Origin: Candidatus Zixiibacteriota bacterium
GTDB taxonomy: Bacteria > SM23-81
Direction of reading: 5' to 3'
DNA: 6,807 bases
Assembly: GCA_030628225.1 (NCBI GenBank)
Contig: DAOVRJ010000135.1
Location: 1 to 6,807, forward strand
The position numbers and the translations under genes are program-made. This document shows positions 1 to 5,249 of the stretch, piece by piece; within the stretch, counting starts at the first letter, position 1, and each line of letters starts with the position of its first letter. Below the pieces are notes generated by a model that worked only from the letters and a program-made list of their open reading frames with translations, was not told the DNA's origin and did no database searches.

Positions 1-507
1 CTTCAGCACATCGCTCACTGTATTGGCGATACTCGCAGCGGACACGGGATCAGTTGCCTGCACCTTCACCTTTATAATATCCGCATCCCTCACCGGCTCA
101 GCAGATATCTTCTTTCTAATTCTCCGGGCAACAAGCTTCTCCCTGGTGAACCCAGGTGGTAATGGATTAGGAATGTTGAATTGCTCGGTTACCGTGAGTG
201 GGAGTGCAATCGCTACTTCTTCAGAAAGTGTCCTGGACTTTATCTCCTCAATCTGATTTGTAATGAAGCTTTTCCGAGAGATGGCCCCTGAGAAATCGAA
301 TGCAGGCATAACCTCTCTGGCTTCCTCAAACACGATGGATGTCTCGGCCTCATAGACTGGTGGAGTTGTCTGGTTGTAGTAAACGATGGGAGCTAGCACC
401 CCACACAGGCAGAGCATGAGCAGCCATTTCTTTCTGCGAAGCGTATTAACGAGGTCGTAGAATGTAATCTGCTTACTCTTTTTTGTTGTCGGTGTGATCT
501 GTCGCAT
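1..507 (-). CDS. Wzz/GumC-family polysaccharide chain-length determinant, N-terminal part (runs off the left edge)
   Basis: I translated 169 codons by hand from ATG at 507 to the window edge with no stop, so the gene is partial. Residues 1-27 are a polar, basic cytoplasmic stretch (ITFYDLVNTLRRKKW). Residues 28-44 form a transmembrane segment (WLLMLCLCGVLAPIVYY). Then come the periplasmic signature PPVYEAETSIVF (49-60) and, near the edge, IIKVKVQATDPVSAASIANTV (from about 144), which matches the conserved dP..Aa.iAN segment of the family. Wzz/GumC/ExoP proteins are inner-membrane polysaccharide co-polymerases that set O-antigen or exopolysaccharide chain length and work with a Wza-type outer-membrane exporter. 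The start has a good ribosome site (GGGGAGGG at 522-515); a GTG directly before the ATG, at 510-508, could also serve. Whether a C-terminal BY-kinase domain follows cannot be seen. The co-oriented SLBB gene at 4199-4630 supports a polysaccharide export locus. Confidence 0.88.
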   Translation of the reverse strand, partial: MRQITPTTKKSKQITFYDLVNTLRRKKWLLMLCLCGVLAPIVYYNQTTPPVYEAETSIVFEEAREVMPAFDFSGAISRKSFITNQIEEIKSRTLSEEVAIALPLTVTEQFNIPNPLPPGFTREKLVARRIRKKISAEPVRDADIIKVKVQATDPVSAASIANTVSDVLK

Positions 508-680
508 CACATATCCCTCCCCAGAAAATTTCTAATTCTACTCTTAATTGGCCTCAAAGTGACCAGTTATCAAAAAAGCTCGCCTGAGGGGATTTCAGTT
601 GCTCGCGGGCCAAGACGAGACACCCGCAATTAGTTGGATCACCGGTTACGATCTTAATAGCAGTCCGTCATTTATACCAG

Positions 681-1033: not shown

Positions 1034-2902
1034 CTATCGCAAAAACACCATCTTCCGCGTGCTGACAAAGTTCTCTGTATTTAAACGATAGAAATAGACA
1101 CCAGAAGCCAGTACCTGGCCATCTTTATCCTTGCCATCCCATCGGACGGTGTGCATACCAGCAGTCTGCATCCCATCCACCAGGCTGGTCACCTTCTGGC
1201 CCAGGCTGTTGAAGATCTCCAGGCGGACATGACCGACCTCATGCAGCGCGTAGCGGATCTGGGTACTGGCGTTAAAGGGATTGGGAGTATTCTGGTGCAG
1301 GATAAACTCTGTAGGCTGCGCAACCAGTTGAATGAAAATGGGCGGATAGGTGGTTATCTCACCTTGAATACTCACATCCGAAAGGCGATAATAATAACTC
1401 TCACCGACCTCGACAGTGACATCGGTAAAAGCATATTCTGTGCGAATCGATGTGGTGCCCTGACCTTTTAGGGCATCATGTGTTCGGTAAGACGCCATTT
1501 CTTGCCATGATTCATCATTGCCCTCAGAACGGTCAAGAATAAAACCAAGATCCTCAATCTCACTCTCTGTTACCCATCGTAAAGTAACACTACCACTTTT
1601 TTGCTCAGCGGTAAAAGAAGAAAGTTCAACGGGCAGCGAACCTTCATCATTCCAGTATTCATAAGACCCAATATCAATAGTGCCGTTTCTCTGTGCGCCG
1701 CGTTGATCAGTTGAAGGAACAGGAACACTACCATTATCTGTACTGTTTCCTGCATTAATTGCCACAGAACCGGAAGTCGTTTTTAAGGTTTTTACACCTG
1801 TTGTAGAATTATTCTCTGCTAAAGTAGAACTTAAATTAAGATTTGTTTGATTTCCGGTTATATCACCGGTTCCACTAAATGTATAACCAGATGCATACTC
1901 TACAATATTGTATCCATTATCTGTAACAGAACCTGAATTATTTGCAAAATCCTTTGACCAGCTTCCCTGATCTGCTAGTATTGTATTTTTTATTATTACT
2001 ATTCCTTCAGAATATATTCCACCACCATACTCCGAACCATTTGCAGTATTACTTTTGAGAGTACAATTTGTAAGAGTCAGCGTACAGGTAGTACCAACAT
2101 AAATTGCACCACCCTTTTCTGCATCATTAGTTATAAATGTACTGTTTGTTACCACAGCTGTGGCAGAAGAACTAGGCTCGTTATAAATACATCCACCATT
2201 GCCATCAGGTTTAAATTCCGGCCATTCGGGTTCACCATACGAACCACCATACCCTGCATTATTATTGTAAAATGTTGTACCTGTTACGACAAGTTGCCCT
2301 TTGTTGTAAATAGTACCACCATCGCCACCTTCGCCAGCATCTGAACCATCCCACTCAATTCCATCGCTTCCGAATCCTGCCATATTATAGTAGAGATAGC
2401 AATTCTCTAATTTCAGATCACCCTCATTAAAGATCGCACCTCCTGGGTCACCATCTTGAGAATATCCCAGATATCCTAAGATATATTGTTTCCCATAGGA
2501 TATTTCAACAAGCTTAATTGTTGCAGTAATACCACTTGAGATAGTAAAAACTCGTCTGTTACCCCAGTATTCAAAGGATGAATAAGCTCCTACAGTTGTT
2601 TCATCGGCTGCCTGTCCCTGGATTGTGATATTTTTATTAATCGTATAACCAGTAACGCTGTTCTGTCCTCCGGTTTCTTCGGCATTGTCCCAACTAAAAG
2701 TACCTGTAAGATCAAGAATATCACCATTGCTTGCCATTGTGTATCCTTTGTGAAAACTTTTATAGGGAGATCCGGAAGAACCATCCCCCGAAGCATCATT
2801 TCCTGTGCTGTAATTGACATAAACTGTAGCAGCCATCAGGCTTGCACTCATTGCTAATCCTAAGATCAGTATAATCACAGGAATTAAACTCAGCTTTTTC
2901 AT
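1034..2902 (-). CDS. Secreted right-handed beta-helix protein with choice-of-anchor Q motif and T9SS type A sorting domain
   Basis: This 622-aa protein is probably exported and displayed on or released from the cell surface. Residues 1-24 are a signal peptide (MKK, hydrophobic core, cleavage near LMA/A). The passenger (about 25-415) opens with the YVNYSTGNDASGDG lead-in typical of parallel beta-helix proteins. It has five GGxI(Y/F) rung motifs at 154, 195, 236, 264 and 293, most followed by FxxN-like turns (FYNN, FITN), resembling Pmp-type repeats. AINAG (381-385), DQRG (399-402) and DIGSYE (410-415) match the choice-of-anchor Q ending. Residues 423-530 are a beta-sandwich segment (LPVELSSFTAEQ...TLRW). 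Residues 531-622 are the sorting domain (HQNTPNPFN, VRWDGKD, ASGVYFYRL, KMVFLR). The start has AAAGGAGG eight bases upstream, and the ParA stop lies only 35 bases before it, so co-transcription is likely. Coding DNA for the passenger is much more AT-rich than that for the tail. The ligand or enzymatic activity is unknown. Confidence 0.9.
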   Translation of the reverse strand: MKKLSLIPVIILILGLAMSASLMAATVYVNYSTGNDASGDGSSGSPYKSFHKGYTMASNGDILDLTGTFSWDNAEETGGQNSVTGYTINKNITIQGQAADETTVGAYSSFEYWGNRRVFTISSGITATIKLVEISYGKQYILGYLGYSQDGDPGGAIFNEGDLKLENCYLYYNMAGFGSDGIEWDGSDAGEGGDGGTIYNKGQLVVTGTTFYNNNAGYGGSYGEPEWPEFKPDGNGGCIYNEPSSSATAVVTNSTFITNDAEKGGAIYVGTTCTLTLTNCTLKSNTANGSEYGGGIYSEGIVIIKNTILADQGSWSKDFANNSGSVTDNGYNIVEYASGYTFSGTGDITGNQTNLNLSSTLAENNSTTGVKTLKTTSGSVAINAGNSTDNGSVPVPSTDQRGAQRNGTIDIGSYEYWNDEGSLPVELSSFTAEQKSGSVTLRWVTESEIEDLGFILDRSEGNDESWQEMASYRTHDALKGQGTTSIRTEYAFTDVTVEVGESYYYRLSDVSIQGEITTYPPIFIQLVAQPTEFILHQNTPNPFNASTQIRYALHEVGHVRLEIFNSLGQKVTSLVDGMQTAGMHTVRWDGKDKDGQVLASGVYFYRLNTENFVSTRKMVFLR

Positions 2903-2920: not shown

Positions 2921-2940
2921 TAAATATTATTGAATATTTA
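2921..2940. promoter_or_regulatory. AT-rich perfect inverted repeat between the ParA and beta-helix genes
   Basis: TAAATATT (2921-2928) and AATATTTA (2933-2940) are exact reverse complements around a 4-base spacer. The repeat includes the ParA stop codon (2940-2938) and ends just upstream of the ribosome site of the beta-helix gene (2918-2911). An all-A/T stem is weak as RNA and has no adjoining T-tract, so a protein-binding operator or an AT-rich promoter element is more plausible than a terminator. This assignment is inference. Confidence 0.45.
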
Positions 2941-4080
2941 AAATCCCTTCTCAATCTCTTGGGTGCCCTCACTGCTCTGCTTCCTTTCCCGCTCGCCGTA
3001 CTCAATGATGGAGTTCATCACGCCGTAAGGGCTCTCAACCTTGCGGGGATTGTTCGGGTCCTCCCCCCACTGGCCATCCACCCTGAAACGGTACTGATAG
3101 ACACCTGGCTTCAGGCATAGCACCTTGGTCCAGGTCCCCTGGCCATCGACGTCCAGCATGGCTCCTTCGCTGGCATTCCAGTTGTTAAAATCTCCGGCCA
3201 CCTGCACGCTCTTGGCCCCTGGGGCATAGATGCTGAACCTGACACCATCCTCCACCGGCTGTGTTCCCAGGGAAGATGCGGAGGTGGCGGCTCTGGCACC
3301 ATCACGGTGAACTCTAGCTTTCCCCAAGGAGAGCACCTCCTGGGCCAGGACGGCATAATCCCGGTAGCCACTGCTGCGTCGATCGTACTGGCAGATGGGC
3401 TGGCCGAAACCGGTGGCTTCCCTGAGCTGCACGTTGATGTGGATGATGGTTCTGAACAGGTTCTCGCCGAAGTGTTCGCGGAGTTCCTCCCAGACCTCTC
3501 CAGCGATCCGAGTGCGCTGATCGTAGATGGTAGCCAGGACCTGCATGTGTTTTTTCTGGCCGAACCGATCTTCCACCAGCTTAATGGTCTCGCTGATCTT
3601 GCCCAGGCCGTGCAGGGCGAAGAAACTGGTTTCCACGGGCACGATCACCTCGCGGCAAGCCCTGAGAGCGTTAAAGGCGAGCAGACCCAGGCTGGGCGGG
3701 CAGTCGACGACGATATAGTCATACTCCCCGGGCATTTCCGCCAGGGCGTTCAGGAGACGGTCCTCCCGGCCGGGCTGTCCGGCCAGCTCCTGCTCCACCG
3801 CGCTGAGCATGATCCCCGAGGGGGCCAGGTCGAGGTACTTGTCCACGCCGACGATGACGTCTTCCATTCCCACATCCCATTGTGTCTCGGATAGAACGTG
3901 GTACATGTGCTTCTCGATCTCCTCGGGCTTGACGTTGAGACCCAGGGAGGAGTGGCCCTGGGGGTCCAGATCCACGAGCAGGACTCTCTCATTGCGCTCT
4001 GCCAGGCAGGCAGACAGGTTGATGGACGTGACGGTCTTGCCACATCCTCCCTTGTGATTGACGATGGCGATGGTTCTCAT
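2938..4080 (-). CDS. ParA-family ATPase fused to a C-terminal CBM48/AMPK-beta-type glycogen-binding domain
   Basis: This is a 380-aa two-domain protein. Residues 1-253 form a Soj-like ParA ATPase: deviant Walker A NHKGGCGKTVT (8-18) with signature Lys10 and Lys15, the A' motif LLVDLDPQG (34-42), Walker B YIVVDCPPS (122-130), and the C-terminal ParA signature LREATGFGQPICQYDRRSSG (219-238). There is no N-terminal helix-turn-helix, so it resembles chromosomal Soj or short ParAs (about 250 aa). Residues 254-275 are an Ala/Ser-rich linker. Residues 276-361 form an E-set glycogen-binding module: VQVAGDFNNWN (292-302), YQYRFRVDGQW (328-338), then DPNNP and MNSIIEY. Trp301, Trp338 and Asn356 match known glucan-contact positions. 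A charged tail follows (362-380). The ribosome site is AAAGGA at 4092-4087, six bases before ATG. No ParB is visible in the window. ParA proteins position cargo by ATP-dependent nucleoid binding, so a glycan-linked cargo is inferred, not shown. Confidence 0.93.
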   Translation of the reverse strand: MRTIAIVNHKGGCGKTVTSINLSACLAERNERVLLVDLDPQGHSSLGLNVKPEEIEKHMYHVLSETQWDVGMEDVIVGVDKYLDLAPSGIMLSAVEQELAGQPGREDRLLNALAEMPGEYDYIVVDCPPSLGLLAFNALRACREVIVPVETSFFALHGLGKISETIKLVEDRFGQKKHMQVLATIYDQRTRIAGEVWEELREHFGENLFRTIIHINVQLREATGFGQPICQYDRRSSGYRDYAVLAQEVLSLGKARVHRDGARAATSASSLGTQPVEDGVRFSIYAPGAKSVQVAGDFNNWNASEGAMLDVDGQGTWTKVLCLKPGVYQYRFRVDGQWGEDPNNPRKVESPYGVMNSIIEYGERERKQSSEGTQEIEKGF

Positions 4081-4198: not shown

Positions 4199-4630
4199 TC
4201 AATCTCTTGTCAGCCAATAATAGACATTGGCGATTATGGCCACATCAGCCACGACCCTGATGAAGGTCCGCCATCTATGCCAGGCATTTCGTGGCACTCT
4301 GACCACGTCTCCCTTCTGCAGGATGGGCAGTGGTTTAAAGTTCTCTTTTTCCAGGTAATCTTTTAAATTAACCGTAATTGACCTTTCTGGTTCTTTGATG
4401 GCATGGGTGAGTTTCACCTTGCCCAAATTTGCGTATTCGGTCGGTCCGCCGGCTTTGGAAAGAAGCTCTATAATGTTCGTTCCCGCCAGCACACGATACT
4501 CCCCGGGGGCCTGCACCTCACCCCAGATATGCACCTCCACCAAGAGTTGAGCGTGACTGCCCGGGATGTGGATCGTAAACAGAACAAGTGATAGAACAAA
4601 GCATACGAAAAATGCTTTTTGCCGTTTCAT
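4199..4630 (-). CDS. Small SLBB-domain protein, probable polysaccharide export component
   Basis: This 143-aa protein has a signal peptide (1-27: KRQK, hydrophobic core FFVCFVLSLVLFTI, cleavage near SHA/Q). A single SLBB (soluble-ligand-binding beta-grasp) domain follows: VEVHIWGEVQAPGEYRV (31-47), then NIIELLSKAGGPTEYANLGKV (52-72), with LQKGDVVRVP (104-113) closing it. A C-terminal hydrophobic stretch (about 123-140, FIRVVADVAIIANVYYWL) could be a membrane anchor. SLBB domains occur in Wza-type exporters, where they line the periplasmic part of the channel, but those proteins also carry an N-terminal poly-export domain that is absent here. It is therefore an accessory or minimal export protein rather than a full Wza. 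The start is set by the signal peptide and a GAGGGG ribosome site at 4639-4634; an in-frame TAG lies upstream. The gene is co-oriented with the ParA-CBM gene (118-base gap) and with wzz, consistent with an exopolysaccharide role. Confidence 0.85.
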   Translation of the reverse strand: MKRQKAFFVCFVLSLVLFTIHIPGSHAQLLVEVHIWGEVQAPGEYRVLAGTNIIELLSKAGGPTEYANLGKVKLTHAIKEPERSITVNLKDYLEKENFKPLPILQKGDVVRVPRNAWHRWRTFIRVVADVAIIANVYYWLTRD

Positions 4631-5173: not shown

Positions 5174-5249
5174 TGGCTCCGGCGGTAGGACTTGAACCTA
5201 CAACCTAGTGGTTAACAGCCACCCGCTCTACCGATTGAGCTACGCCGGA
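5174..5249 (-). tRNA. tRNA-Asn (anticodon GTT)
   Basis: The 76-nt gene folds into a full cloverleaf: acceptor stem TCCGGCG/CGCCGGA, D stem GCTC/GAGC, anticodon stem GGTGG/CCACT (one G-T pair), anticodon loop CTGTTAA with GTT at 5216-5214, variable loop AGGTT, T stem GTAGG/CCTAC with loop TTCAAGT, discriminator G, and an encoded CCA at 5176-5174. It reads asparagine codons AAC and AAT. The gene has its own promoter and terminator. I see no integrase or duplicated tRNA 3' end nearby, so nothing suggests it is a used integration site. Confidence 0.97.

Follow-up and report, generated by a model that had tools for sequence, protein, structure and literature searches.

What does a bacterium gain from a ParA-type ATPase that carries a glycogen-binding domain on its own polypeptide? 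ATPases of the ParA/MinD group place DNA, carboxysomes, flagella, chemotaxis clusters and division sites, and the gene considered here, a fusion of ParA to a domain of the CBM48/AMPK-beta type, raises the question of whether a carbohydrate might be placed in the same manner. The gene lies in a window of 6,807 nucleotides from a Candidatus Zixiibacteriota bacterium, the window being the whole stretch of DNA analysed and also an entire contig of its source genome (306 contigs, 92% complete). The earlier note on this DNA could name no characterised protein with the ParA-CBM48 architecture and we found no publication describing one in the library searched, a search of the literature for ParA or MinD proteins with a CBM48 or glycogen-binding domain having returned nothing relevant.

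The fusion gene, identified by the ORF call, Pfam matches, a structure model and its orthologues, is an uninterrupted frame of 380 codons plus a stop that begins with ATG and runs on the minus strand from 4080 to 2938; the plus-strand frame over 2938-4080 is interrupted by stops. The frame is not a chance one, since the same genome encodes a 76%-identical paralogue and two-domain orthologues are present in many genomes. Residues 1-253 (3322-4080, minus strand) form a Soj-type ParA ATPase domain, of which residues 1-174 match AAA_31 in Pfam (E 5e-51), and include at residues 10-16 (4033-4053, minus strand) a deviant Walker A motif, KGGCGKT, whose cysteine at a variable position is a mark of the fusion lineage. 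A flexible linker at residues 254-270 (3271-3321, minus strand), the segment that changes fastest between the paralogues, leads to a glycogen-binding domain of the CBM48/AMPK-beta type at residues 271-362 (2995-3270, minus strand). This domain is matched by CBM_48 (PF02922) over residues 271-342, with E 1.7e-13 and 51.1 bits against a Pfam gathering threshold of 22.4, and by AMPK1_CBM (PF16561) over residues 286-360, with E 2.6e-12 and 47.2 bits against a cut-off of 26.8. The closest solved structures are chromosomal Soj/ParA proteins for the ParA domain (E 1e-54) and the glycogen-binding domains of mammalian AMPK beta-1 and beta-2 for the C-terminal domain (E 7e-11). An AlphaFold2 model contains two confidently predicted domains (mean pLDDT 85) and a disordered linker at 258-269 (pLDDT <50), and its ParA part superimposes on Soj/ParA structures with Z of 35-39 and an rmsd of 1.2-1.6 over 241-251 residues, the scores against McdA (Z 31) and BcsQ (Z 27) being lower. 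Because the fold search listed mostly matches to the ParA domain, the CBM fold rests on the sequence matches and on the confidence of the model.

The residues expected to serve the two activities are retained across the family. K10, K15, D39 and D126, which represent the deviant Walker A motif with its signature lysine, Walker A' and Walker B, are present in 55/55 aligned family sequences; at the positions where Soj contacts DNA, R189 is found in 45/55 and a lysine or arginine at 218 in 51/55, the window copy having a glutamine at 218 where its relatives have K or R. AMPK-beta contacts glycogen through W100, K126, W133, L146 and T148, and mutation of W100, W133, K126 or L146 cuts binding (PMC2642990). 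Alignment with AMPK makes Trp301 (3178-3180, minus strand) and Trp338 (3067-3069, minus strand) the equivalents of the glucan-stacking Trp100 and Trp133 of AMPK-beta1, and among 54 sequences compared at the CBM contacts W301 is present in all 54, W338 in 53, an arginine or lysine at 331 in 53, an aromatic residue at 352 in 49 and N356 in 52. W100, W133, K126 and L146 have conserved or conservative equivalents in the family, across phyla, and the equivalent of T148 varies, being V, E or Q. The predicted ATPase motifs and both putative glucan-stacking tryptophans are thus nearly invariant. E-set domains are often protein-binding folds, and the C-terminal domain could have lost glucan binding and become a protein-protein interaction module, as the failure to keep T148 would allow; we regard this as very doubtful given that the stacking tryptophans, the basic residue, the aromatic residue at 352 and N356 are all kept across phyla. 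The earlier note had described one continuous 380-codon frame at 2938-4080, joining a complete Soj-like ParA domain to a complete glycogen-binding domain, and on these points the Pfam matches (AAA_31, CBM_48 and AMPK1_CBM), the structure model and the conserved catalytic and glucan-contact residues bear it out; the strand, which the note did not give, is minus.

A search for homologues and their neighbourhoods, which the earlier note had suggested, showed that the fusion is no rare artefact: about 75 further loci were found in several phyla, comprising Zixibacteria, Planctomycetota, two further phyla and probably Omnitrophota. In a scan of bacterial and archaeal genomes, ten loci matched over the full or nearly the full length; they belong to Zixibacteria, Planctomycetota, Omnitrophota and further bacteria, the Omnitrophota match being weak (31%). 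Whole-genome searches found the fusion in 60 of 80 genomes of a large further phylum (57 full length and three cut by contig ends), in 3/3 genomes of the phylum of genome G027, and in a minority of 294 sampled Planctomycetota genomes. A plain ParA is also present in many fusion-bearing genomes. The cysteine of KGGCGKT occurs at 76 of the 77 family loci, a set that includes one without a recognisable CBM, as compared with 0/25 plain ParA proteins. When 32 fusion and 25 plain ParA domains are placed in one tree, fusions and plain proteins are split with one change (support 84 by a quick method), so that a single ancient fusion event explains the distribution most simply. The fusions form one ParA lineage, recognisable by a P-loop signature of its own, and a single origin fits the tree. 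Against the paralogue, which lies on contig C50, dN/dS is ~0.16 in the ParA portion and ~0.21 in the CBM portion, and among the copies of the window, of C50 and of the same-family relative SM23_81 the ratios are near 0.1-0.2 for ParA and 0.2-0.26 for the CBM; as judged from these substitution ratios, both domains are under purifying selection. An assembly or frameshift artefact is ruled out by the many independent orthologues and by this selection. A plasmid or phage partition gene was also considered and rejected, with 0 plasmid records and a single phage record that covers 80% of the query (35% identity over query residues 2-306) in a match that stops inside the CBM.

The gene that follows the fusion usually starts with a basic peptide and then '[LI]xxISHLFLS', recognised by pattern and by eye and usually located at about residue 10 of the encoded partner; one such partner peptide reads KKDKRLGKGLEDISHLFLSAEQK. 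The core reads LEDISHLFLS in Zixibacteria, LRDVSHLFLS and IDAIAHHFLS in the large further phylum, FEDISHYFLS in the phylum of G027 and IDELAELYLT in Planctomycetota, the wider pattern after the basic stretch being [LIF]xx[IL][SA]H[LFHY][FY]L[ST]. The strict motif stands behind the fusion at 35 of 54 loci as compared with 9 of 2412 control ORFs and, in a larger set, at 48 of 77 loci (59 of 77 for the extended motif), counts that describe enrichment and are no blind test, because the strict pattern was written after the first examples; a second batch of 23 loci was fetched after it was written. Residues just ahead of the motif are 33% K/R/H, against 13% in the remainder of the partner proteins. 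The Zixibacterial version, KRLGKGLEDISHLFLS, resembles the LGKGL start of Spo0J, and the ISHLFLS peptide resembles the start of MinE as well; a ParA-binding peptide fits better than a membrane-binding, MinE-like one because of the preceding basic residues and the conserved histidine. In known activators of ParA/MinD ATPases, N-terminal peptides of this kind are attached to unrelated domains (PMC7993993), and the activating motif of ParB is aliphatic plus basic (PMC12462528). The N-terminus of the partner resembles this anatomy, making it a candidate activator. The supposition in the earlier note that the fused domain would let the ATPase find its cargo without a separate adaptor is not supported for the family, the next gene in most orthologous loci encoding a partner with an activator-like N-terminal peptide.

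The bodies that carry this peptide differ. A model of the partner behind the C50 copy has a MinD fold, with FlhG (4rz2) as the best match (Z 29.6, rmsd 2.3 over 252 residues); residues 1-11 and 15-43 are predicted with pLDDT <50, and the peptide itself is modelled as a short helix. The P-loop of the partner is broken and its signature lysine lost (GDHRSLEKS in the C50 partner, PPGGVEKP in genome G002). In one partner (L039:9062-9940, plus strand) a start resembling the peptide, LEKLFSFFLT, precedes an ATPase body of the AAA_22 (ExeA) type in place of a MinD-like one, and in the phylum of G027 the body is an unrelated small protein. No match to a ParB domain was found among six partner proteins scanned. 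Genome G416 has two fusion copies (L189 and L190), and an ISHLYIS partner of its own accompanies each of them. The gene behind the partner at L117:2-580 (minus strand) and L037:7837-8418 (plus strand) has a weak NucS_C (endonuclease-like) match (E 0.012), and a similar stretch can be recognised by eye in the C-terminal part of a planctomycete partner, L042:9456-11252. A DUF3467 gene, of a family that has almost no literature and is mentioned in one unrelated paper, immediately precedes the fusion at each of the three partner loci of Zixibacterial type (L117:2672-2986, minus strand; L037; L118). DUF3467 was rejected as a general part of the system, as it adjoins the fusion only in Zixibacterial-type loci, and in other fusion genomes the family is located elsewhere in most and is absent from some.

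In the window itself the fusion gene lies between an export-like gene and a surface-protein gene. Upstream is a 143-aa secreted-type SLBB protein (4199-4630, minus strand) that resembles polysaccharide-export proteins (SLBB, E 6e-9; pepcterm_export, E 4e-8, below its cut-off); downstream, 36 bp after the fusion, is a surface protein recognised by its domain matches as having a type IX secretion sorting tail (1034-2902, minus strand), and a Wzz chain-length determinant (1-510, minus strand; E 1.9e-10) is cut by the contig end. The surface protein gene is AT-rich (GC 42%) and its product contains a choice-of-anchor Q domain, and a tRNA-Asn (gtt) gene at 5174-5249 (minus strand) separates the SLBB gene from a GlpC/GlcF-like iron-sulfur gene. 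The GC content of the fusion gene is 60%, compared with 42-49% in its window neighbours. The window contains no partner gene, and a search of the whole genome, with a pattern that a more divergent motif would escape, gave a single exact ISHxFLS-type match, located behind the C50 copy; the genome also has a separate plain ParA on contig C83. With no partner nearby, the sole exact motif behind C50, and exopolysaccharide genes (SLBB, Wzz) as neighbours, the window copy is thus a lineage-level duplicate that sits within an exopolysaccharide locus.

A surface-polysaccharide setting recurs elsewhere. In 18 loci of the large further phylum the fusion, the partner, a Wzy polymerase/ligase, a GT4 glycosyltransferase and a PNPT protein (Glycos_transf_4) follow one another on one strand, most of these loci having a small single-pass protein between the partner and Wzy. 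In the one Wzy-type locus scanned, a DUF212 (divergent PAP2 phosphatase) gene is just upstream of the fusion (L250:13443-13871, minus strand). This conserved order, and the position of the window copy between the SLBB export-like gene and Wzz, could mean that a Wzx/Wzy-type exopolysaccharide machine is coupled or localised by the module, in the way that BcsQ serves cellulose synthesis and the ParA-like tyrosine kinase CpsD serves capsule synthesis; the CBM48 would then read either a lipid-linked oligosaccharide at the cytoplasmic face or, as a carbon signal, a cytosolic glucan. ParA-like ATPases that take part in capsule synthesis offer a precedent (PMC4574921). We consider this explanation unlikely. 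Other orthologues have genes for glycogen, secreted lipoproteins, riboflavin or other functions beside them, the syntenic block lacks the chain-length or kinase partner to be expected, a polymer made in the periplasm would be out of reach for a cytosolic CBM, and the ParA domain is Soj-like and not BcsQ-like (79.6 bits with the BcsQ model against a cut-off of 157.85).

The glycogen connection is seen most fully in genome G421, where the genes after the module encode a free CBM48 protein, two glycosyltransferases of the GT4/GT5 type, a branching enzyme of family GH57 and a phosphorylase. These predicted neighbours constitute a glycogen set, of which the full operon was found once, with a partial version in G416. 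A branching enzyme adjoins the Zixibacterial SM23_81 copy and a GH57 glucanotransferase adjoins the Omnitrophota copy, and GH57 adjacency, at three loci, is suggestive only. Both of the cargoes named in the earlier note, glycogen and exopolysaccharide, have genomic links to the family. A secreted lipoprotein-like gene adjoins the module at a further 16 loci that have neither glycogen nor surface-polysaccharide genes. A free-standing CBM48 protein of ~130 aa lies next to the fusion in L193, about 670 bp downstream, and one is likewise present in L189. Glycogen synthase is encoded by 61 of 78 genomes of the large further phylum regardless of the fusion, and its presence was rejected as proof of the cargo, being too widespread and kept in genomes without the fusion; co-occurrence fails to single out glycogen because the enzyme is common with or without it.

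The conserved fusion and its partner suggest an undescribed system that positions sugar polymers or the machinery for their synthesis. Our main reading, to which we assign a probability of about one half, is of a chromosomal ParA subfamily tethered to CBM48 that performs nucleoid-based positioning of an alpha-glucan or of glucan-linked glycan machinery. ATP-bound ParA dimers would bind the nucleoid via the conserved basic residues, and the CBM48 on its flexible linker would hold an alpha-glucan, most simply a glycogen particle or alternatively an intermediate in the assembly of surface polysaccharide that contains glucan. The product of the following gene, in many loci a pseudo-ATPase resembling FlhG/FleN whose disordered basic N-terminal peptide ends in ISHLFLS, would bind the dimer and prompt ATP hydrolysis, such that repeated release and rebinding might distribute or anchor the glycan cargo; the window copy would either have no partner or borrow the single one detected, behind the C50 copy. 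We infer that the ATPase binds the nucleoid and a glucan, that the partner activates it and that a cargo is positioned, and we infer which cargo this is. Counting against positioning is that the glycogen and surface-polysaccharide contexts point to different cargoes, as do the 16 loci with neither context, the Q218 of the window copy and the lack of a partner beside it, the loss of the T148 equivalent, and the different partner bodies of L039 and of the phylum of G027. We propose more tentatively that these proteins are a new ParA partition class, present in several phyla, in which CBM48-bound glycogen particles or glucan intermediates are segregated on the nucleoid with a pseudo-MinD activator.

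Variable neighbourhoods would also suit a regulator, and glucan binding by the CBM might tune the state of the ATPase or its binding to the partner, regulating polysaccharide genes or enzymes while the cargo stays unmoved. The CBM of AMPK-beta is a regulatory sensor (PMC2642990), and the partner body resembles FlhG/FleN, of which FleN regulates the transcription factor FleQ. An activator-like peptide and conserved DNA-binding arginines are nonetheless features of nucleoid-positioning ParA proteins, and among the neighbours, annotated in part, no transcription factor is constant; we think a glycogen-responsive switch of this kind quite improbable.

If the positioning reading is true, carbohydrate cargo is a new class for ParA/MinD ATPases, and a cargo-binding domain fused into the ATPase is an unusual arrangement. 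With this gene pair one could test directly whether glycogen is actively shared out between bacterial daughter cells. The subfamily is easily recognised by the combination of KGGCGKT, CBM48 and an ISHLFLS partner, and uncharacterised ParA proteins of Planctomycetota and candidate phyla can therefore be annotated.

Comparison with known systems places the fusion near several of them. It shares with the ParA (Soj) of ParABS systems the fold, the deviant Walker A motif, the catalytic residues, most of the basic residues with which Soj contacts DNA and a partner with a basic plus aliphatic N-terminal peptide, but differs in its CBM48, the KGGCGKT signature, a partner that is not ParB and a separate branch of the tree, the plain ParA of this genome being the one on C83. 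BcsQ is likewise a ParA-type ATPase tied to glycan synthesis, although it has no CBM, the fusion falls under the TIGR03371 cut-off (79.6 versus 157.85 bits), and no obvious bcs cluster is nearby. McdA/McdB similarly pairs a ParA-type ATPase with a partner that has a basic N-terminal extension, whereas the fusion is 18-19% identical to McdA structures and has cargo recognition partly fused to the ATPase, and no carboxysome gene was seen among those neighbours that were annotated. CpsD-type tyrosine kinases are also ParA-like P-loop proteins of polysaccharide loci; the fusion, in contrast, combines a Soj domain with a CBM and matches kinase models weakly (eps_fam, 24.3 bits versus 108). The partner body has the MinD-like fold of FlhG/FleN (Z 29.6 and 26.4), differing from these in its broken KGGxGKT P-loop, its N-terminal ISHLFLS peptide and its location behind a ParA-CBM48 gene. 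With AMPK beta and other CBM48 proteins the fusion has in common the domain fold and the main glucan-contact residues, but here the domain sits on a ParA ATPase and not on a kinase complex or a glucan enzyme.
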